Assembly: GCF_001293125.1 (NCBI RefSeq)
Contig: NZ_CP009312.1
Location: 1,773,447 to 1,837,446 of the forward strand
Length of the DNA stretch: 64,000 bases
Reading direction: 5' to 3'
Origin: Lawsonella clevelandensis
GTDB taxonomy: Bacteria > Actinomycetota > Actinomycetes > Mycobacteriales > Mycobacteriaceae
The notes under the pieces were generated by a model, which saw only the letters and a list, made by a program, of their open reading frames with translations, ran no database searches and had not been told where the DNA came from. The position numbers and the translations under genes were made by a program. Every line of letters starts with the position of its first letter. Position 1 is the first letter of the stretch. Below, in pieces: positions 13,171 through 23,445 of the stretch.

Positions 13171-13260
13171 ATTGTGCGCCTCAACTGTTTGGACAAGATT
13201 CACTTTTTTATCGACCGTGCTGAATGGACAATTGGGGCTTATACCCATACCCTTTACCTG

Positions 13261-15858
13261 GTGAGAGCATCTGGAATTGTCAAAGTAACCCCAGTCCTGC
13301 CCGACGAACTGCAATGTCTTTATGACCTTGCTTATAACCTTCGTTGGGTATGGCGCAGTGAAACCCGCCAACTCTTCCGTATCATCGACCCCGCTAAGTG
13401 GGATGCCTGTGGCGATCCTCTGCAGGTGATTCGCGAAACCTCCTCCACCCGTTGGGAAGAGCTCCTCGCTAATGATCGTTTCCTCGATGACTATGAGCGC
13501 GAATGCCGCAACTTGGAAGCCTACATGGCTGCCGATTCATGGTTCCAAGAGACTCATGACCCGGACGCGACTGGGCGCGCCAGCCGCGATCCCCTCACTG
13601 CCTACTTCTCCATGGAATTCGGTATCACTCCCTGCCTGCCCATCTACTCTGGTGGCCTGGGGGTACTCGCCGGTGACCATCTAAAGTCTGCCTCTGACCT
13701 TGGCGTTCCGCTGATTGGTGTAGGCCTGCTCTACCACAATGGCTACTTCACCCAGACTCTCTCCCGCGAGGGGCTGCAGGTCGAAAACTACTCGGATCAC
13801 GACGCCGCCAACCTTCCCATCAAGCCGGTGCTCGACGCAGCGGGCAAGCAACTTGAAGTGTCTGTACGTTTCCCGGGCAAACGCTTCCTCAGCATCGCCA
13901 TGTGGACCGCACAGGTGGGACGAGTCACCCTCCTGCTGCTGGATACAAACCTTCCCGAAAACGCTAAGGACCTCCGCGAGCTCACGGACCGTCTGTACGG
14001 TGGCGACGAAGAACACCGCATCCGCCAGGAGATTGTCCTGGGTATTGGCGGTGTCCGCGCCGTGTGCGCCTACTGCGATAACGCCGGTCTGCCGCGCCCG
14101 CAGGTTGCCCACTTGAACGAGGGCCATGCGGGATTCCTAGGGATCGAACGTATCCGCGGGCGCATGGACAATGGTCTCAACTTCGATGAGGCGCTCGCAG
14201 AGGTACGCTCGAGCAGTATCTTCACTACCCATACCCCCGTCCCCGCCGGCATCGACCGTTTCGACATGTCCATGGTGCGGCGCTACTTGAACCCCGACGA
14301 CGATGGTGCCTCAAAGCTGGTGCCAGGTGTGCCGGTGGAACGAGTTCTAGCACTCGGTGCGGAAGGTGATCCCGGTCGCTTCAACATGGCACATATGGGG
14401 TTGCGCCTAGCGCAGCGGTCCAATGGCGTGGCCAAACTTCACGGCGTGGTCTCCCGCTCGATGTTCTCGTCTCTCTACCCGGGTTTTCCGGATGAGGAGT
14501 CTCCCATTGGCTCCGTCACCAACGGTGTGCATATGCCCACCTGGATCTCCCAAACGATGCGTCCTATTGTGAAGCGCATTGTGGGTGAAGGAAACCTCGC
14601 CACTGCGGATTCCTGGGATCATATTGACCGGATTTCGGATGAGGAACTGTGGAAGAGCCGGAATGTCCAGCGTGCCTGCCTGGTGCAGGCGGCGCGTAAG
14701 GCCGTCCGCCAGTCGTGGCTCGACCGCGGTGCTTCTGAGGCTGAACTGGGGTGGACCGATGACATCCTTAACCCCAACGTCCTCACTGTTGGTTTTGCCC
14801 GCCGCGTCTCCACTTATAAGCGTCTCACGCTGATGCTGCAGGATGCCGACCGCCTGCGCGAGATTCTCACCAACGAGGAACGCCCGGTTCAGTTCATTAT
14901 CGCTGGTAAGGCTCACCCTGCGGATGGCGGCGGCAAGTACCTACTCCAGCAACTGGTGCAGTTTGCTGACCAGGCAGGTGTGCGCGATCGAATTGTCTTC
15001 CTGCCCGACTATGACATCGGTCTGGCCCAGATGATGGTGGCAGGCTGCGACATCTGGCTCAATAACCCGATCCGGCCGCAGGAAGCCTCTGGCACCTCCG
15101 GCATGAAGGCTGTTATGAACGGTTGCCTCACCCTCTCCGTTTCCGACGGTTGGTGGGACGAGATGGCTGACGATGAGCTGGGATGGACTATCCCCTCCGT
15201 CGAGAACGCTGACGCTTCCACCCGGGACCGTCTTGAGTCTCTCGCTCTCTACGACCTGCTAGAACGCCAGGCGGCCCCGTTGTTCTATGAGCGCAATGAC
15301 GATGGTGTGCCTGGCGGCTGGGTGGAGCGGATGCGTAAATCCCTCTCCGTGTTGGCACCGAAGGTGTCCGCAACCCGCATGGTGCGAGACTACGTGACGG
15401 AATACTACCGTCCGGCCCAGGGTACGTATCTGCAGATGGTGGACGACCCGCAGGCCTCTGCGCACTTCGTACAGTGGCAGCAGAAGCTGCGTGCTGAATG
15501 GGATAAGGTAGCAGTGACTGCGCTGTCCTGCAATGATCAGGATGCGCTAGCAGCAGAGAAGGACATTGCGCAGTGCCAGTCTGTGGCAGCTGGAAACACC
15601 CTCTCGATGACGTGTTCAGTGAAACTGGGCAAACTTTCCCCCGACCATGTGTGTGTGCAGGCTGTCTGCGGTGCTGTTGATACAAACGACGAACTACATG
15701 ATGTCCGGATGGTGACCATGAAGCCGGCCGCCAATGGGGATTTCCACGCGGAAATCCCGATGGTGAATCCTGGCAACGTGGGTGTGACGGTGCGAGTTGT
15801 ACCCAAGCATCCGCTGCTTGTGAGCCCGGCAGAGATGGGCTTGTGCACTTGGGCCTAG
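13261..15858 (+). CDS. glgP: Alpha-glucan (glycogen) phosphorylase
   Basis: This GT35 enzyme releases glucose-1-phosphate from alpha-1,4-glucans with PLP. It is of the actinobacterial type with an N-terminal domain (about residues 1-110) ahead of the catalytic part. Visible are YFSMEFGI, YSGGLGVLAGDHLKS, HLNEGHAGFL, NGVHMPTW, FARRVSTYKR and the PLP-lysine segment EASGTSGMKAVMNG. The frame is open from 13174, just after the pyk terminator, but GTG 13261 (865 residues) fits better because a promoter must lie in between; TATACC/CATACC around 13240-13251 would give a nearly leaderless mRNA. The start remains uncertain. malQ lies 12 kb away on the other strand. Confidence 0.93.
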   Translation: MRASGIVKVTPVLPDELQCLYDLAYNLRWVWRSETRQLFRIIDPAKWDACGDPLQVIRETSSTRWEELLANDRFLDDYERECRNLEAYMAADSWFQETHDPDATGRASRDPLTAYFSMEFGITPCLPIYSGGLGVLAGDHLKSASDLGVPLIGVGLLYHNGYFTQTLSREGLQVENYSDHDAANLPIKPVLDAAGKQLEVSVRFPGKRFLSIAMWTAQVGRVTLLLLDTNLPENAKDLRELTDRLYGGDEEHRIRQEIVLGIGGVRAVCAYCDNAGLPRPQVAHLNEGHAGFLGIERIRGRMDNGLNFDEALAEVRSSSIFTTHTPVPAGIDRFDMSMVRRYLNPDDDGASKLVPGVPVERVLALGAEGDPGRFNMAHMGLRLAQRSNGVAKLHGVVSRSMFSSLYPGFPDEESPIGSVTNGVHMPTWISQTMRPIVKRIVGEGNLATADSWDHIDRISDEELWKSRNVQRACLVQAARKAVRQSWLDRGASEAELGWTDDILNPNVLTVGFARRVSTYKRLTLMLQDADRLREILTNEERPVQFIIAGKAHPADGGGKYLLQQLVQFADQAGVRDRIVFLPDYDIGLAQMMVAGCDIWLNNPIRPQEASGTSGMKAVMNGCLTLSVSDGWWDEMADDELGWTIPSVENADASTRDRLESLALYDLLERQAAPLFYERNDDGVPGGWVERMRKSLSVLAPKVSATRMVRDYVTEYYRPAQGTYLQMVDDPQASAHFVQWQQKLRAEWDKVAVTALSCNDQDALAAEKDIAQCQSVAAGNTLSMTCSVKLGKLSPDHVCVQAVCGAVDTNDELHDVRMVTMKPAANGDFHAEIPMVNPGNVGVTVRVVPKHPLLVSPAEMGLCTWA

Positions 15859-16135
15859 CAATTACTTAAGCGCGGAACGCCTGCAAAGCTGTGTGGTGCT
15901 GTCGTCTCGTTATTACCGGCGAGGCGGCAGCACTTCATTTGTCATGGGGGGGGGGAGAAGCGGCGTGTCTCACCGCATCAGCGCTTTATTGGCAGTGGGG
16001 AAGAGTTGAGCACGGGGTGAGAGTGTTTCTCGCTGTCAGAGAACGCACAGGTGAGAGTTTTCTTTGCGGTGCTTAGAAGGCAGTTTTTCCCCACGCATGT
16101 AGATAGGGTGCGTGGCACACACCACATGCATTTGT
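15859..16135. other. Intergenic region with a run of ten G
   Basis: No convincing gene lies between glgP and the leader ORF. A 61-codon frame from GTG 15891 has no ribosome site or recognisable product. An uninterrupted run of ten G at 15946-15955 stands out. No terminator hairpin is seen after glgP. Confidence 0.5.
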
Positions 16136-16141
16136 TAGGCT
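16136..16141 (+). promoter_or_regulatory. Leaderless promoter of the Cys/Met-rich leader ORF (TAGGCT)
   Basis: TAGGCT matches the TANNNT -10 and ends exactly six bases before ATG 16148, so the mRNA is predicted to begin at the ATG of the small ORF. No ribosome site precedes that ATG, in keeping with leaderless translation. Confidence 0.6.
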
Positions 16142-16147
16142 GAACGC

Positions 16148-16255
16148 ATGATCACCGCAGATGCCACCCCCGCACGCACCGCCGTCAAGGCGCTCCGTGG
16201 CATCTGCATGTGTATGTGTATGGCTGGCTGCCAGTCTCGAATGTGTTGCCGCTAA
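16148..16255 (+). CDS. Cys/Met-rich leader peptide, probable attenuation or sensing ORF
   Basis: This 35-codon ORF encodes six cysteines and four internal methionines, all in its second half: ICMCMCMAGC, then MCCR at the end before TAA. Random ORFs rarely have such a composition. It has a leaderless promoter and lies 125 bp upstream of a ROK regulator resembling the sulfur regulator CysR. Leaderless polycysteine small ORFs that sense cysteine by ribosome behaviour are known in mycobacteria. TGTGTA within the Cys/Met codons (16215-16220) could pair with TACACA just before the regulator's ATG (16375-16380), a weak six-base match. The peptide itself probably has no function; translation through it would be the signal. 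Not yet supported by any comparison. Confidence 0.6.
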   Translation: MITADATPARTAVKALRGICMCMCMAGCQSRMCCR

Positions 16256-16380
16256 GTTTCTGAGCCCTGCTCCTTAGCATCCGCACACACCGGTAGCCAT
16301 TTTCCTCCGCGTTTCCTTCACAAACGCTTGCCCCCTATAGAACTGCTCCGCTGCAGACTCACACACGAAAGCCTTACACA

Positions 16381-17703
16381 ATGTCTTACGCCACTATCAC
16401 CACTCCCAACACCAATTCCTCCGCTATCCATGCTTCCACAGCTTCCGCTCCGGCATCTCCCACTCCGGTTAGCCGTGCAGTGCGACGACGCAGCGCCTCC
16501 ATCATTCCGCAGCCGTGGGTGAGCACAGGTGCCGGCTATGTGGTGGCCCCACAGCTTCACCTTGGAGAGGGTGCCGCCGCCCGCATTTTCCACCTCGCCC
16601 ATACTGAGGAACCGCTGCAGCGAGATCGTGCAGCAGAACTCACGGGAGTAAGCCGCGCAACCGTCAACCGCAACGTCATCTCGCTGCTGGAAGCCGAGCT
16701 GTTGGAAGAACGCGAAGATTTGACTGAACTGGGTGCCATCGGCCGCCCTGCATTGCCTGTTACTGTTCGCACTGACAAGTACGCTGTCCTCGGTATCTAC
16801 ATTGGCCGCTGGACCGCCTCCGTCACACTTCATGACCTGCGCGGCAGAATCCTCGGCGGTAAGCATTTGCGGCAGGGTTTGGTGACGGGTACCGCCCCCG
16901 GGGCGCTCCTTACCGCACTGGAAGAGGCTGCACTTTACGTCCTGGGCTACCGTAACCAGCGCACAGTGCTGTGGACTGGCGTAGCCGTTGAGGCATCCGT
17001 CACCGCAGAGGGCATCGTCACCGATAGCGCAGCGGGCTGGAACGATGTGGCCGTTGGGCAGTACTTTGCCACTGGTCTTGGTCTCCCCGTCTCACTTGCT
17101 CCCCACGTCGAAGCAATGAGCGCAGCCGAACTGTGGAACACGTCCTCCCATGATGTGGCTGCATCTACCCTCTACGTGTATGCCCGCGAAACCCTCGGTA
17201 TCGGCCAGGTCTATAACGGCCAGGTACACCATAGTGTGGCCAGCTCGGGTACCTTCGGCCACCTGGTTGCCGGCCCCACCACCTTGCTCGACCCGCAGGG
17301 TGAAGGCACGGTTGGCAGTGCAGTGAAAGACTCCGCAGTCGTAGCGGCAGCCCAAGCCGCTGGCCTACCTGTCGAGACTGTTGCTGAGTTGGTCGCGCTA
17401 GCAGAAGACGGCAATAGCGATGCGAAGACAATCCTACGAGAGCGTGCCGTTGTCCTCGGCGAAGCTATCTCGTCCTTGGTGAGCCTTCTCAACCCCACCC
17501 GTGTGGTGCTTGGTGGACAAGCGTTCACAGACTCCCCCGAAACTCTAAGCCTCGTTGCTTCCATCGCGCGGCAGAACGCCAAAGGGCTTGACATTCGTGT
17601 CACGGCAGCTCGCGGCAGGGTCCAACAGCAGGCGGCGGCGGCAGTCGCCATTACGGCAGTGGCCAATGATCCTTTGCAGGTCATAAACAAGAAGCAGAAG
17701 TAG
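16381..17703 (+). CDS. cysR: ROK-family transcriptional regulator, CysR-like
   Basis: The 440-residue protein has a disordered Ser/Thr/Ala-rich start (residues 1-45), a winged helix-turn-helix (about 75-115; RDRAAELTGVSRATVNRNVISLLEAELL) and a ROK sugar-kinase-like domain (about 135-440; LGIYIGRW, SGTFGHLVAGP). The usual ROK zinc motif CxCGxxGCxE is missing: the equivalent stretch reads DPQGEGTVGSAV. So it is a regulator, not a kinase. As I recall, the sulfur regulator CysR of Corynebacterium glutamicum is ROK-type; the Cys/Met-rich leader just upstream supports that identity, but the symbol is tentative. ATG 16381 lacks a good ribosome site. A sugar-responsive NagC/Mlc-type role is the alternative. 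Confidence 0.65.
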   Translation: MSYATITTPNTNSSAIHASTASAPASPTPVSRAVRRRSASIIPQPWVSTGAGYVVAPQLHLGEGAAARIFHLAHTEEPLQRDRAAELTGVSRATVNRNVISLLEAELLEEREDLTELGAIGRPALPVTVRTDKYAVLGIYIGRWTASVTLHDLRGRILGGKHLRQGLVTGTAPGALLTALEEAALYVLGYRNQRTVLWTGVAVEASVTAEGIVTDSAAGWNDVAVGQYFATGLGLPVSLAPHVEAMSAAELWNTSSHDVAASTLYVYARETLGIGQVYNGQVHHSVASSGTFGHLVAGPTTLLDPQGEGTVGSAVKDSAVVAAAQAAGLPVETVAELVALAEDGNSDAKTILRERAVVLGEAISSLVSLLNPTRVVLGGQAFTDSPETLSLVASIARQNAKGLDIRVTAARGRVQQQAAAAVAITAVANDPLQVINKKQK

Positions 17704-17974
17704 CAGGAACAACATCTACGTTCGTTGCGTCAGGCCTCATGATCACCCCCAAGGATGGGGAAATCACCAAGAAGGATAACGAAACGGGGGAGGGTGAACC
17801 TCAAGCCTTTGCCACAGACCTTCTAGCCCCCTTACTCTCTTCGCCTCAGATCTTGCAGGAGACCGTCTATCTCGTTCCCTGAATGAGCATTTTGGGTAGC
17901 GAATCCAGTTAGCTCGGTTGCGCCTCTTTAGACGTCACCCTTTCCCTGTATAGCAGTAAGAGGAGGTGGAAAGA
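17704..17974 (+). other. Gene-poor stretch with a possible 47-codon phage relic
   Basis: A frame from ATG 17739 to TGA 17882 encodes an acidic 47-residue peptide; the frame is open further upstream to within cysR and has no ribosome site. It might be the C-terminal stub of a phage structural gene, judged only by its position before the phage-like cluster. The rest, up to the AGGAGG at 17961, holds no recognisable gene. Confidence 0.25.
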
Positions 17975-18359
17975 ATGGGCTACAACAAGAGTAGTTTCAA
18001 TTGCTTCGTCAATGGGGCGAGCTTTGAAAGAAGTTCGGGATGCACTGGCACAATTCACTGCCGAGGTGGATATTAAGCCAGGACATGAGGACGAACGGGA
18101 GCTGACCCTCCCCGGCGATGACGACAACTACATGGAGGCAGCTATCGCTTATAAGGCAACGAGTGGAACTCCTGGGGCAGACGTCAGATCATTGTTTATC
18201 ATCGATGATTTCCGCTGGTGGGCTGATCAACTCTTTGAGTGCCTCTCAGGTGCCATCCCCATGAATCTCTACATGGAGCAGGACTCGATGGACCCTATGT
18301 TCCTGCGTAAGCGTATTAATGGCATCTACTCCTATGAAGAGCTAACAAAGACCTCCTAA
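17975..18359 (+). pseudogene. Frameshifted copy of the putative immunity gene
   Basis: ATG 17975 follows AGGAGG and starts MGYNKSSFNCFVNGASF, parallel to MNYNSSSFDCFVYGATM of the intact copy at 19586. After GASFE one extra A in GAAAGAA (around 18027-18033) shifts the frame; the homologous sequence then continues in the next frame (EVRDAL to YSYEELTKTS) to TAA 18359. Removing one base restores about 127 residues that follow the second copy throughout (WWADQLFECL versus WWANQIFECL; DPMFLRKRINGIYSYEEL versus DPMFLRERVNGVYSYEEL). It is followed by a terminator nearly the same as the one after the second copy. If the extra base is an assembly error, this is an intact orphan immunity gene. Confidence 0.75.
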
Positions 18360-18379
18360 CGCTTTCATTACCCGAATAG

Positions 18380-18412
18380 AACCCCGTCACCCCCTATTGG
18401 GTGCGGGGTTTT
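18380..18412 (+). terminator. Terminator after immunity copy 1
   Basis: AACCCCG and CACCC pair with GGGTG and CGGGGTT around a short loop, with one bulged T, followed by TTTTCCTTT. The same element, with small changes, follows immunity copy 2 at 19990-20020, so the duplicated unit includes the terminator. Confidence 0.8.
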
Positions 18413-18447
18413 CCTTTACCCGCCGCCTGTGTCTGCATATTTGCGCT

Positions 18448-19572
18448 GTGCGAGCCTTCGAGCTTTCCCGTATCTCCGCAGGGGTTATGGAGACACTCCC
18501 ACGACCAGAGAGCGCCTGGCAGGAGACACCGCTAGAGCAGCTGGAGCGCACTGTCACCTGGGGAGTGCGGAAGATTAACGGGTGGGATGCGCTGGCTCTT
18601 GCCCAGTTCCTGGGAGCGTCGGGGAGTTTCGAGCGAAACATTCTCCAGCAGGCCAGGAAAACTGTCTTCCACAACACCCAACGCTCCGGTACCCGCTATG
18701 CCCGTATCCCTGGGCCTTATGCCTGCCCGTTTTGTCTGATGCTGGCCTCCCGGGGCGCCGTCTACCTCACAGAGAAATCCGCTACTTCGAAAACCAACGG
18801 TGGCAGGTTCCACGACAGCTGCCACTGTGTGGCCATAGAATGCCTCACCCAAGACGACGTCCCCTCCTCCATCCACGAACTAGAACAAGAGTGGAACAAC
18901 ACCGCCGGACACGTCACCACCGGCGAAAAAGACCAACAACGCGCCTGGACACACTACCTGCACTCCTCCCGCCCCTACCAAGTCCGCGCCGGACACACCA
19001 TGAAAAACGTTATGACTGTGCGCCCTACCCCCAGTGTGTTGCAGGCGCCCGGGCAGATGCATCTTTATAAGAGGGGTAAGAAGTCCACTACTGTGCTTCA
19101 TCGGAAAGCGATTAGTGCGGAGACTCTTCGCAAAGCAGGGGTCGTCAACGATGGAGGAAGTTGGCTCAAAGAAGAACGCGCACTCGTAGGAAGGCTACAA
19201 ACGCGAAATACGGCCAAGGTGCAGGCAGTAGAGATCATCGGGCAAATGCGAGACGATGACCGCAAGAAACACGTGCTAGAGATCACCGGCGGGAAACAGC
19301 GCACACCGGACTACATCATCGGAGACGCCACCGCAGACCTTAAAACACTAAAAAGGCTACGAGGGAAAACTATAGACGAAAAAATACTTAAAGATCTAGA
19401 ACAGTCTAGGTACCAAGCGTCTGTAGCTATTATTGATGCTAGGGAATACCCTGTAGAAAAAGAAGAGTTAGCGCGGCTCCTAGAAGATAGAATGCAAGAA
19501 GACAAGGTGCCGTCGGAATTTGTCATACTGGGGCAATATGATGGCAGAGAGTACGAGTTAGTATGGCCGTAG
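18448..19572 (+). CDS. Phage minor capsid (MuF/VG15-like) fragment fused to a toxin-like C-terminal domain, 5'-truncated
   Basis: Residues counted from GTG 18448 (374 in all). The first 150 resemble the second half of actinophage minor capsid proteins: LPRPESAWQ, a CPFC pair (Cys93, Cys96) and FHDSCHC (His122, Cys125, Cys127), a likely metal site. Phage homologues have about 100 more N-terminal residues, absent here; the frame runs back to a TTG inside the preceding terminator and no start has a good ribosome site, so the gene looks 5'-truncated. From about residue 170 it changes to a domain ending in VLEITGGKQRTPDYIIGDAT and ADLKT, then helices and a final FVILGQ strand; the PDYxxGxxxxDLKT pattern recalls nuclease toxins of CdiA/BECR type. 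DNA there is visibly A-richer. A putative immunity gene starts 13 bp downstream. Confidence 0.6.
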   Translation: MRAFELSRISAGVMETLPRPESAWQETPLEQLERTVTWGVRKINGWDALALAQFLGASGSFERNILQQARKTVFHNTQRSGTRYARIPGPYACPFCLMLASRGAVYLTEKSATSKTNGGRFHDSCHCVAIECLTQDDVPSSIHELEQEWNNTAGHVTTGEKDQQRAWTHYLHSSRPYQVRAGHTMKNVMTVRPTPSVLQAPGQMHLYKRGKKSTTVLHRKAISAETLRKAGVVNDGGSWLKEERALVGRLQTRNTAKVQAVEIIGQMRDDDRKKHVLEITGGKQRTPDYIIGDATADLKTLKRLRGKTIDEKILKDLEQSRYQASVAIIDAREYPVEKEELARLLEDRMQEDKVPSEFVILGQYDGREYELVWP

Positions 19573-19585
19573 GGAGGTGGAGAGT

Positions 19586-19969
19586 ATGAATTACAACAGT
19601 AGCAGCTTCGATTGCTTCGTTTATGGGGCAACGATGGAGGAAGTTTGCGATGCCCTCGTGAAGCGGTTTAATGCCGAGGTGGAGATTGAGCCGGGCTATG
19701 AAGATAGTGAGTGGGAGCTGACTCTCCACGGTGATGACGGCAACTATATGGAGTCTTTTATTACCTACGGGACAGCATATGGAGAGCGCGGAGTGGACGT
19801 CTGCACGGTGTTTTCCCTTGGGGATTTCCATTGGTGGGCTAACCAGATCTTCGAGTGCCTCACCGATGCTCTCCCCAACGATGTTTACATGGTGCAGAAC
19901 TCATTAGACCCTATGTTTCTCCGTGAGCGTGTTAATGGTGTCTACTCCTATGAAGAGCTAAAAGCGTAG
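19586..19969 (+). CDS. Putative immunity protein to the upstream toxin-like domain
   Basis: This 127-residue acidic protein (MNYNSSSFDCF at the start, GVYSYEELKA at the end) is not one I can assign to a named family. ATG 19586 is preferred over GTG 19577 because AGGGAGG lies at 19571-19577. It starts 13 bp after the toxin-like gene, has its own terminator, and has a frameshifted paralogue on the other side of that gene. A small acidic protein directly after a C-terminally variable toxin, with orphan duplicates nearby, is the usual arrangement of polymorphic toxin immunity genes. The role is inferred from context only. Confidence 0.55.
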   Translation: MNYNSSSFDCFVYGATMEEVCDALVKRFNAEVEIEPGYEDSEWELTLHGDDGNYMESFITYGTAYGERGVDVCTVFSLGDFHWWANQIFECLTDALPNDVYMVQNSLDPMFLRERVNGVYSYEELKA

Positions 19970-19989
19970 CGTTTTCGTTATTTGAATAG

Positions 19990-20020
19990 AACCCCGCACC
20001 TGCAAAGGGTGGCGGGGTTT
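19990..20020 (+). terminator. Terminator after immunity copy 2
   Basis: AACCCCG pairs with CGGGGTT, with an inner CACC/GGTG stem, followed by TTTTCCTTT. It is nearly the same as the terminator at 18380-18412. Confidence 0.8.
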
Positions 20021-20162
20021 TCCTTTACCCACCGCCCGTAGACGCGTGACCGCGCCGGGCGGTGTGGTGTATTGAGCACCCTTTTCAGCCGGGGGTTGTT
20101 GTGGTTGGGCAGTTGACCCACGGTGCGTGTGATGTGGGGTTCATGTTTGAGGAGAAGAAATC

Positions 20163-20402
20163 ATGCCGGATTATGTGACACCGAATGATGTGGCTCAGAT
20201 GGCTGCTGGTGAGCAGACCCCAGACAATATGCAAGAGGAGTGGTCGGAGGGGGAGAATTTACCCCGTCTGCCTCGCAGGGAGAGTGAGGTGGTTTTATGT
20301 TGTTGCTGGGCTTCCTCGCTTTTTTCGTGCGTTTTTGTGGCTACATTTTGGCTACATCTGGTGCATTTTAGAGCCTTTTTGTGCCCTTTCGTGCCCCCTT
20401 AA
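20163..20402 (+). CDS. Small hypothetical protein, probable phage remnant
   Basis: ATG 20163 has a good ribosome site (GAGGAG). The first 45 residues (starting MPDYVTPNDVAQMAAG) look like an ordinary soluble protein N-terminus; after VVL the remainder is Cys/Phe-rich and low in quality, as if the frame runs into non-coding DNA. It overlaps the GGCTACAT repeats near the tRNA. I read it as the 5' end of a phage gene cut off by deletion. No function can be assigned. Confidence 0.35.
   Translation: MPDYVTPNDVAQMAAGEQTPDNMQEEWSEGENLPRLPRRESEVVLCCCWASSLFSCVFVATFWLHLVHFRAFLCPFVPP
20338..20357. repeat. Tandem GGCTACAT repeats, possible integrase arm sites
   Basis: GGCTACAT occurs at 20339-20346 and 20350-20357, eleven bases apart, about 120 bp from the 3' end of the tRNA gene. 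Direct repeats at one-helical-turn spacing next to a tRNA 3' end are typical of phage attachment regions. No integrase gene and no second copy of the tRNA end are seen in the window. Confidence 0.35.
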
Positions 20403-20426
20403 GCGCCTACCGTAAATATAGTGAAA

Positions 20427-20464
20427 CCCCTGGTGAACCAGCATTTCTACCGATCTACCAGGGG
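20427..20464 (-). terminator. Hairpin downstream of the tRNA gene
   Basis: CCCCTGGT (20427-20434) pairs with ACCAGGGG (20457-20464) across a 22-nt loop. On the minus strand it follows the tRNA 3' end and leads into GTTTCAC, so it may end tRNA transcription. Confidence 0.5.
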
Positions 20465-20474
20465 CTTTGAAAAG

Positions 20475-20548
20475 TGCCCTCGGTGGGACTCGAACCCACA
20501 CTGGACGGGTTTTGAATCCGTTGCCTCTGCCAATTGGGCTACGAGGGC
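20475..20548 (-). tRNA. tRNA with anticodon CAA (Leu by anticodon; short variable loop)
   Basis: The minus strand folds as a 74-nt cloverleaf: acceptor GCCCTCG/CGAGGGC, D-arm GCC/GGC, anticodon arm ACGGA-TTCAAAA-CCCGT, five-base variable loop CCAGT, T-arm GTGGG-TTCGAGT-CCCAC, discriminator A, no encoded CCA. The loop places CAA at 34-36, which is leucine. Leucine tRNAs usually have a long variable arm, so a short loop is unexpected. The base pair 31-39 is A-C rather than Watson-Crick. The tRNA call is firm, the amino acid less so. TAGACT on the minus strand at 20579-20584 could be its -10. Confidence 0.9.
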
Positions 20549-20727
20549 AAAGCGCGAGGCGCTCAGTGCCTGCGGCTAAGTCTAATAGAGAACCCCGACG
20601 AGAGAAAAACTCTCCGCCGAACTCGATGCAGACCCTGTTGGTTCTTTGCGCTGAAATGTAATCCATGCGGCCTCATAGGACCTCCGTGCAGTGGGGAGAG
20701 TGTCTCCCGGAGAGTGGGGAGATTGTC

Positions 20728-20733
20728 TAAGCT
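20728..20733 (+). promoter_or_regulatory. Leaderless promoter of polA (TAAGCT)
   Basis: TAAGCT ends six bases before GTG 20740. The only purine-rich stretch (AAGGGG) abuts the start codon and is too close to serve as a ribosome site, which favours leaderless translation. Confidence 0.5.
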
Positions 20734-20739
20734 GAAGGG

Positions 20740-23445
20740 GTGACTGCAGAAACAACCCCCACGCGTCCTGTCGTTTTGCTCCTCGATGGGCATTCCATTG
20801 CTTTCCGTGCGTTTTTCGCGTTACCTCCGGAAGGCTTCAGTACGAGCGCAGGACAGCATACCAATGCAGTTTATGGGTTCCTGTCTATGCTCACTAATCT
20901 CGTCTCTGAGGAGCAGCCAGACTACATTGTGGCTGCGTTCGATGAGGGGCGTGCTACCTTCCGCAACCGTGCCTATCCCGAGTACAAGGCGCAACGATCT
21001 GAGACCCCTGCCGAGTTCATTGGGCAGGTAGAGCTTATCCGGGAAGTACTGCAGGCACTCGGCATCCCCACTGTTTCTAGTGCCGAATATGAGGCGGATG
21101 ACCTTATCGCCACGTTATCGCGCGTCGCCGAGGAATCCGGGAAACAATCCCTGATCTGCACCGGTGACCGAGACTCGTTCCAGCTCATTGACGACTATAC
21201 AACGGTCCTCTACCCCACGAAGGGGGTGTCGACGCTGGTGCGCTATACGCCAGCACAGGTGAAAGAGCGTTATGACGTCACCCCGCAGCAATACCCTGAT
21301 ATGGCGGCCTTGCGGGGGGATCCCTCAGATAACCTCCCGGGTGTTCCCAAGGTTGGGGAGAAGACCGCAGCGAAGTGGCTCAATCTCTACGGATCTCTGG
21401 AGGAGATCATTGCTCACGCCGATGAGATCAAAGGCAAGGTAGGGGAGAATCTTCGCGCTCACCTTGAGGATGTGAAGCGGAACTCCTACCTCACCGCAAT
21501 GGTGAGGGATGTTGATATGGAGCTCGATCTTGCAGATGCAGCCCGCACCCCAGTCGACGAGGTGCCCATCAACGAGGTTTTCGACAAACTAGAGTTCGGC
21601 TCCCGCCTCCGCGAACGCGTATTCGCAGCGTTCAGTCTTTCTCCTGACGCCGACGAAGTACCGAGCACTGAGGTTTCTCTCGCAGTCACCTTTGCTGAGC
21701 TCGACGGGGTGGCAGACTGGCTGGCTGAACATGGACAAGGCGAGGGAGTCTATGGGGTGGTGGTGACGGGTCCCGCCAGCATTGTGGCGGGGGATGTTGA
21801 TGCCCTCGCTATCGCTAGCCCCACCGGTCAGCAGTTGGTATGCACGGCAGCATCCCTGAGTCCAGCCGATGAGGCCGCACTAGGGGAGTGGATGGCCGAT
21901 CCTGCTGTGAAGAAGGCTTTCCACGACGCGAAGCGGTGTATACATTGCCTTGCCGGTCGCGGGTGGCGCCTCAACGGTGTGTACTTCGACACGTTGGTGG
22001 CATCCTACTTGGTCCGGCCCGGCCAACGCGCTACTAGTTTTGACGATGTTGTACGACGCCATACTGGAGCAGAATTGGTACCCCCGGAGGATGGGCAACT
22101 TAGTCTCCTCGAGATGGCTGACGACAACGACCAGTTCCGTGAGAATCTTGCAGTGCGGGCAGCCCACCTGCTGGCTCTCGTCGCACAACTGACTGAGGAA
22201 TTGGATGGATATGGGGAAACCCGCCTCTTCCACGAGATGGAGATGCCCCTCGTGATGGTGCTCCAGCGGATGGAGCATGATGGTATCGCTGTCTCTAGCC
22301 GAGCCCTCCACGAGCTCGAAGATGACTTCTCTGCCCAGGCCGCACTGCTCGAGCGAGAGGCCTATGTAGCTATTGGTGATGACACTGTCAACCTTGGATC
22401 GCCGAAGCAGCTGCAAGCGGTACTGTTTGATCAATTGGGAATGCCAAAGACCAAGAAAACAAAAACCGGCTATTCGACTAACGCAGAATCCCTCGAAATG
22501 CTGTATGCGAAGACGGGCCACCCCTTCCTCGCTGCGCTGCTGGGGCACCGTGCAGCCACCAAGCTTAAAACCACAGTGACCGGCCTCATCAACTCGGTGA
22601 GTGACGACGAGCGCATCCACACCACGTTTAATCAGACAATCACCACCACCGGCCGTCTCTCTTCAACAGACCCGAATCTCCAAAACATTCCGGTCCGGAC
22701 GGATGAAGGTAAACGCATACGCGAGATCTTCGTCGCTGGAGAAGGCTACGAAGGACTTCTCACCGCCGACTACTCGCAAATCGAGATGCGCGTCATGGCC
22801 CACCTGTCGAAGGACGAAGGGCTCATTGAGGCGTTCCAGCGGGGTGAGGATTTACACTCCTACGTCGGCTCTGTGGCGTTTGATGTACCGCTAGATGGAG
22901 TTACTCCAGAACTGCGCCGGCGGACCAAAGCGATGAGCTATGGCCTCGCCTACGGACTATCGCCCTACGGGCTGGCACGACAGCTTGATATTCCCGTCGC
23001 CGAAGCTAAGAGCTTCATGGAGAACTACTTCGAACGCTTCGGAGGGGTACGCGACTATCTGCACAATGTGGTGGAAGAAGCTCGGAAGACTGGATACACG
23101 GAAACTATGTTCGGCCGGCGCCGGTATCTTCCCGAACTGACCTCCAGCAATCGGGTTGTGCGGGAAAACGCCGAGCGAGCTGCTCTTAACGCGCCTATTC
23201 AAGGCACCGCCGCAGACATCATCAAATTGGCGATGCTGCGGGTGGATTCCGCCCTACACGACTCTGACCTGCGCTCTCGTGTTCTTCTGCAGGTACATGA
23301 CGAGCTGGTGTGTGAGGTTGCGCCAGGCGAGCGGGAGGCGTTGCAAGCTTTGGTGTCGGAGTGTATGGACTCTGCTGTCGAGTTGGCAGTCCCGCTGGAA
23401 GTTTCGGTTGGTTTTGGGGCTACATGGAATGCTGCCGCGCATTAA
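20740..23445 (+). CDS. polA: DNA polymerase I
   Basis: PolA fills repair gaps and removes RNA primers. The 901-residue protein has a 5'-3' flap exonuclease domain (about 1-300; LLLDGHSIAFRAFFALP, EADDLIATL, GDRDSFQL, RGDPSDNLPGVP), a degenerate 3'-5' exonuclease-like region (about 310-490) and a family A polymerase domain (about 520-901) with TGRLSSTDPNLQNIPVR, DYSQIEMRVMAH, RRRTKAMSYGLAYG and the catalytic HDELVCE. The 3'-5' region lacks the usual acidic motif set, as in other Actinobacteria, so proofreading is unlikely. rpsA follows after 174 bp, the normal actinobacterial order. Confidence 0.97.
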   Translation: MTAETTPTRPVVLLLDGHSIAFRAFFALPPEGFSTSAGQHTNAVYGFLSMLTNLVSEEQPDYIVAAFDEGRATFRNRAYPEYKAQRSETPAEFIGQVELIREVLQALGIPTVSSAEYEADDLIATLSRVAEESGKQSLICTGDRDSFQLIDDYTTVLYPTKGVSTLVRYTPAQVKERYDVTPQQYPDMAALRGDPSDNLPGVPKVGEKTAAKWLNLYGSLEEIIAHADEIKGKVGENLRAHLEDVKRNSYLTAMVRDVDMELDLADAARTPVDEVPINEVFDKLEFGSRLRERVFAAFSLSPDADEVPSTEVSLAVTFAELDGVADWLAEHGQGEGVYGVVVTGPASIVAGDVDALAIASPTGQQLVCTAASLSPADEAALGEWMADPAVKKAFHDAKRCIHCLAGRGWRLNGVYFDTLVASYLVRPGQRATSFDDVVRRHTGAELVPPEDGQLSLLEMADDNDQFRENLAVRAAHLLALVAQLTEELDGYGETRLFHEMEMPLVMVLQRMEHDGIAVSSRALHELEDDFSAQAALLEREAYVAIGDDTVNLGSPKQLQAVLFDQLGMPKTKKTKTGYSTNAESLEMLYAKTGHPFLAALLGHRAATKLKTTVTGLINSVSDDERIHTTFNQTITTTGRLSSTDPNLQNIPVRTDEGKRIREIFVAGEGYEGLLTADYSQIEMRVMAHLSKDEGLIEAFQRGEDLHSYVGSVAFDVPLDGVTPELRRRTKAMSYGLAYGLSPYGLARQLDIPVAEAKSFMENYFERFGGVRDYLHNVVEEARKTGYTETMFGRRRYLPELTSSNRVVRENAERAALNAPIQGTAADIIKLAMLRVDSALHDSDLRSRVLLQVHDELVCEVAPGEREALQALVSECMDSAVELAVPLEVSVGFGATWNAAAH

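Follow-up and report, generated by a model that had tools for sequence, protein, structure and literature searches.

Does the short cysteine-rich ORF that precedes a ROK-family regulator gene in Lawsonella clevelandensis control this gene, and at which step of expression would it act? The locus was analysed in a stretch of 64,000 nucleotides (the window) from the host genome, which is a single contig of 1.86 Mb assigned to the GTDB family Mycobacteriaceae. The ROK regulator unit is set between an alpha-glucan phosphorylase gene (13174-15858) and polA, and a terminator-like hairpin would separate it from the upstream phosphorylase gene. The features of the locus, with the basis of each in brackets, are as follows.

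15895..15934, + strand: terminator-like hairpin 3′ of the alpha-glucan phosphorylase gene (consensus scan: 17-pair stem, T-rich tail)
16112..16125, no strand assigned: inverted repeat GTGG-CACACA-CCAC over the expected −35 region (read from sequence)
16133..16141, + strand: extended −10 element TGTTAGGCT, 6 nt ahead of the uORF ATG (sequence; geometry kept in relatives)
16148..16255, + strand: putative leader uORF of 35 codons, MITADATPARTAVKALRGICMCMCMAGCQSRMCCR (sequence; Cys-richness beyond random ORFs; counterparts in relatives)
16157..16167, + strand: left arm of a predicted hairpin, GCAGATGCCAC (shuffles; MFE and centroid folds)
16197..16207, + strand: right arm of this hairpin, GTGGCATCTGC, whose end lies at the first Cys codon (shuffles; MFE and centroid folds)
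16205..16252, + strand: Cys/Met codon run (codons 20-35), the proposed sensor (sequence)
16215..16225, + strand: candidate anti-start segment TGTGTATGGCT, uORF codons 23-26 (10/11 bp complementary to the ROK start region)
16256..16380, + strand: pyrimidine-rich leader spacer of 125 nt (sequence; terminator scan)
16370..16380, + strand: ROK translation-initiation region AGCCTTACACA, just before the ATG and sequestered in the predicted fold (P(unpaired))
16381..17703, + strand: ROK-family regulator of 440 aa (PF00480, 1.9e-15; identity to relatives; tree)

Every number that the first-pass annotation had given for the 35-codon ORF agrees with its computed anatomy. The ORF spans 16148-16255 (+), the TAGGCT hexamer (16136-16141) stands exactly six bases ahead of its ATG with GAACGC in between, its final 16 codons comprise 6 Cys and 4 Met, and 125 nt separate its stop codon from the ROK ATG (16381). 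The downstream gene had been taken for a CysR-related ROK regulator, an assignment borne out by the PF00480 match and by the position of the protein in the tree. Relatives with 34-45% identity occur in most genomes of the family (they were found with an alignment query; a single-protein scan of named genomes gave none). The window regulator branches inside the Mycobacterium/Rhodococcus/Gordonia clade (100/100), on a long branch, and the corynebacterial homologs are sister to this clade. The predicted protein is a member of the Mycobacteriales ROK ortholog group of Rv0485/Msmeg_0932, which is CysR-related. mshA follows the ROK regulator in Mycobacterium asiaticum, an adjacency that is expected for the Rv0485 locus. 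The window ROK gene lacks a good Shine-Dalgarno (SD) sequence.

TAGGCT is preceded by TG and so forms an extended −10 element (TGTTAGGCT). Its spacing falls within the 6-7 nt between −10 element and start codon that are expected of a polycysteine leaderless attenuator, a correspondence of sequence geometry alone, and the uORF transcript is expected to be leaderless and to start at the ATG at 16148. The GTGG-CACACA-CCAC repeat further upstream is, speculatively, a possible operator, and no McbR-type operator (TAGAC-N6-GTCTA) was found in positions 15801-16500.

The window holds 37 short ORFs with a TANNNT motif 5-7 nt upstream, and this uORF alone among them exceeds 3 Cys over its final 16 codons. 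Random ORFs of the leaderless type were collected from 60 Markov-random 64-kb sequences with the dinucleotide make-up of the window; none of 1,863 carries more than 4 Cys, compared to 6 in the leader uORF, whose Cys cluster is not a product of chance. Nine extended −10 sites lie exactly six bases from an ATG genome-wide, and the sole clear Cys-cluster ORF among them is the leader uORF. Another short ORF of the leaderless type, with four Cys, was observed as MTNACGPCRESLCGFALSSWRWRGTFCSA (L225, G000:C1:1191646-1191663 onward). The first-pass annotation had missed a perfect 11-bp inverted repeat within the uORF (16157-16167/16197-16207), which is matched in 0/400 Markov shuffles and 0/400 codon shuffles and folds into a hairpin in both the MFE and the centroid structures. 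An Rfam search gave no match at the locus, and no Pfam or NCBIfam model was found to match leader peptides.

A leaderless-type ORF with at least 2 Cys near its end was detected computationally ahead of the ROK gene in 181 of 193 loci, nearly all of which come from the family, in partly overlapping collections. Several of the other 12 are contig edges or have ORFs barely outside the filter, while the ORF is absent from genus g4 and from two other genomes. The predicted uORF ahead of the ROK regulator is common to almost the whole bacterial family. After dereplication to 107 leaders, TGn precedes TANNNT in 100, the start codon is found 6-7 nt downstream, the median length is 35 codons and the median distance to the regulator 109 nt. 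The Cys-cluster uORF is kept over genera. None of the relatives examined has the Met codons of the CMCMCM stretch of the window. A peptide core, VTYVTxALGxRLPxxRxLCC, is shared by Gordonia, Williamsia, Rhodococcus and others; Mycobacterium leaders are GTG-started and poly-Cys, Cys-Met mixtures occur in a few relatives, and the window has its own version. The codons for VTYVT, GTCACCTAYGTGAC(C), are nearly fixed and form a palindrome or hairpin in the uORF (L111, L181, L023 and others), which could act either as an RNA hairpin or as an operator. A different inverted repeat occupies the VTYVT position in Tsukamurella leaders. Williamsia- and Tsukamurella-type leaders with their ROK genes were also seen on contigs labelled Kitasatospora arboriphila and Acidobacteriaceae (L067, L099), which are probably mislabelled or contaminant records.

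The first-pass annotation had proposed that TGTGTA in the Cys/Met run can pair with TACACA next to the ROK start codon (16375-16380). Both motifs are present and the pairing was understated, as it involves 10 of 11 bp between 16215-16225 and 16370-16380. Taken in the window alone, complementarity exceeds that of shuffled sequences weakly (p 0.042 and 0.016 with the start region as target; 0.37-0.41 with the whole leader), which is modest evidence. Across relatives, pairing between a uORF tail and the start region of its own ROK gene is better than when shuffled sequences, start regions of other species or other uORFs take their place (mean percentile 0.31-0.34, n=107). Strict dereplication to 61 leaders preserves the signal, with mean percentiles for own pairing of 0.33 and 0.29 (p about 1e-6, a group value that, like those of the ribosome occupancy model below, carries residual phylogenetic dependence) and of 0.51 for a mid-leader control. 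Examples are the pairing of GGGTCCTCTGTTGCC with GGCAACAGGACCC (L093) and of GTGTTGTCC with GGACGACAC (L158). The group signal emerges solely when the start region is the target: RNAduplex of the uORF against the whole leader shows no excess group-wide (mean z −0.10), and the longest uninterrupted helix, sought along the entire leader, is not significant in the group (mean p 0.47).

The effect of a ribosome on this structure was then modelled. The whole leader of the window folds better than its shuffles (z −3.4). The probability that its SD region is unpaired rises from 0.36 in the free leader to 0.60-0.72 when a ribosome occupies codons 20-30 and drops back at codon 32. In 54 leaders (window included) the modelled footprint leaves the SD region most open when placed from 2 codons before to 6 after the start of the Cys cluster (p 2e-4 at the best position to 4e-3), an opening absent elsewhere along these leaders. 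A simpler group test, which compared the naked leader to one with a ribosome halted at the first Cys among its final 16 codons, gave no effect (p 0.53). The evidence for a relief of start-region sequestration by stalling is strong across relatives, while the window alone yields p values of 0.016-0.41 depending on the region tested. The suggestion that ribosome position on the leader exposes or hides the ROK start is supported by a modelled release confined to ribosomes on the Cys codons and by the co-varying pairing. An intrinsic terminator was sought in 16256-16380 and none was found between leader ORF and gene; classical transcription attenuation by such a terminator was rejected for this reason, and translation attenuation is favoured. 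It is also the mode best supported by pairing with the own start region together with an SD release specific to the Cys cluster.

We consider it probable (about 0.72) that the 35-codon ORF, as a leaderless leader peptide that senses cysteine, controls translation of the ROK regulator. The weak pairing signal in the window alone, the negative group tests, the lack of a good SD sequence and the absence of the unit from the other genome of the genus speak against this. Transcription would begin at the uORF ATG. With ample Cys-tRNA the ribosome would clear the Cys codons and depart, leaving 16215-16225 to pair with 16370-16380 and to close the ROK start region. With scarce Cys-tRNA it would wait on codons 20-30 and mask 16215-16225, so that the start region would remain open and the regulator would be produced under cysteine shortage. 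Transcription, translation, stalling and the cysteine response of the leader are expected from how it is built and from the precedent in M. smegmatis discussed below.

Cysteine-responsive transcription attenuation of the Rho type could use the same leader, either because stalling bars Rho from the C/U-rich spacer or because completed translation exposes the spacer. Such a role of Rho was proposed for mycobacterial cys leaders by Seliverstov et al. (PMC1262725) and the spacer (16256-16380) is rich in pyrimidines, but this mode explains neither the position-specific release nor why complementarity to the ROK start region co-varies, and we regard it as unlikely.

The leader had also been thought to read both sulfur amino acids, and four Met codons do stand among the six Cys codons of the window, as Met does in the tails of some relatives (MCRMCCMHCC types). 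Most relatives' tails lack Met or have it fixed in a pairing motif. It occupies 2 of 672 tail positions (0.3%) in the Rhodococcus/Nocardia type and 1 of 224 (0.4%) in the remaining short/mycobacterial group. The higher counts of Gordonia/Williamsia (32/462) and Tsukamurella (18/126) lie mostly in the context CGAATG, which takes part in the pairing to the ROK start region. The window uORF keeps one CGAATG; its other three Met codons (CMCMCM) belong to a TGTATG repeat unique to the window. Because Met is scarce in relatives' tails or bound to the CGAATG pairing context, dual sensing is unsupported, and we hold it improbable that methionine is sensed besides cysteine. Just as improbable is a retuning of the leader, in a genome that is reduced and has no sulfate assimilation, into a Cys+Met gauge that would drive a scavenging regulator, the repeat creating a new anti-start sequence.

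The peptide itself deserves consideration. In 85 leaders (L011, L024, L054, L111 and others) the G, R, L, P, R and C of the core ALGxRLPxxRxLC are invariant and synonymous codons are free, pointing to selection that would act on the peptide and perhaps to nascent-chain-assisted stalling. The first Cys of the cluster is encoded by TGT in 84 of these 85 leaders. The near invariance of this core would suit a functional Cys-rich small protein (acting in metal binding, redox or nascent-chain arrest) in place of a Cys-codon sensor. The window peptide, however, lacks the core and has only the tail Cys cluster in common with relatives, and position and promoter are conserved when the sequence is not; this reading is very improbable.

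That the uORF is a chance ORF and the regulator is under promoter control only is hardly credible, as the Cys cluster is far above random sequence, the uORF-ROK unit is conserved and the pairing co-varies, even if the corynebacterial and g4 homologs have no uORF and most of them show, at the start codon of the gene itself, inverted repeats of the TAGAC-like/GTCTA (McbR-type) kind (L018, L175, L184, L196, L198, L200). These homologs are in keeping with the leaderless, McbR-controlled cysR, and promoter control through McbR-type sites may have replaced leader control in Corynebacterium and genus g4.

The placement of such a leader before a regulator had seemed new. It is not, because the same ROK gene, Rv0485/Msmeg_0932, was already pictured by Shell et al. 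2015 (PMC4633059, Fig. 7B) with a conserved leaderless uORF, rich in Cys, in front of it. That uORF resembles the present one in being leaderless, in its terminal Cys cluster and in the ROK group to which the downstream regulator belongs. The window differs by a peptide with six Cys interleaved with Met, by the 11-bp hairpin, by the 125-nt spacer and by a ROK gene that lies between the phosphorylase gene and polA and not by mshA. In M. smegmatis, polycysteine leaderless ORFs have been shown experimentally to act as attenuators, according to papers that cite Canestrari et al. 2020 (doi 10.1111/mmi.14498); the likeness lies in a leaderless Cys-run ORF, a cysteine-dependent ribosome speed and control of the downstream gene, whereas the window leader belongs to another genus and is a prediction. 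Like those attenuators, the uORF has Cys codons clustered near its stop and keeps its position ahead of a sulfur/cysteine-related gene. The Cys leader peptides described by Seliverstov et al. 2005 (PMC1262725) for mycobacterial cys operons, Propionibacterium and the B. longum cbs gene share Cys-codon runs close to the stop and the lack of an intrinsic terminator; they precede enzyme operons, while the window leader precedes a regulator gene and pairing with its start region was detected. C. glutamicum CysR (PMC2580772) is a ROK-type regulator of a related sequence group whose gene is itself leaderless and a member of the McbR regulon. In contrast, the predicted TSS of the window gene is 233 nt upstream of its start codon, and no McbR-type site lies nearby. 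What is new here is the family-wide evidence for a predicted sequestration of the start site by the Cys-codon stretch. Cysteine sensing by the ribosome would thereby bear directly on a regulator, beyond enzymes, and a translational signal could pass into the transcriptional network, and the family-wide data predict the pairing bases and the codons where stalling would open the gene.

The sulfur metabolism of the host bears on the duty of the regulator. CysR of C. glutamicum binds O-acetylserine/O-acetylhomoserine and controls sulfate reduction genes. Genes for PAPS reductase (PF01507) and sulfite reductase (PF01077) were not found in the host genome, with positive controls, and this target set is consequently absent. 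The ROK regulator can hardly govern sulfate assimilation there, and retention of the unit in such a genome suggests that its real duty is likely uptake or scavenging. Rhodaneses and PALP-family enzymes are present, and no such Cys leader was found at the rhodanese locus or at two PALP loci of the genome. In the other genome of the genus that was compared (L194, G001), polA comes shortly after the phosphorylase gene, and the ROK unit and a toxin island, which in the window lie within the interval 15858-20740, are missing; the uORF-ROK unit was accordingly gained here or lost there. The probable polymorphic toxin island (18012-19969) comprises a protein with VG15 (phage capsid-like) and CdiA_C-type toxin domains (18397-19572), flanked by small similar proteins (18012-18359 and 19577-19969) that resemble immunity genes.
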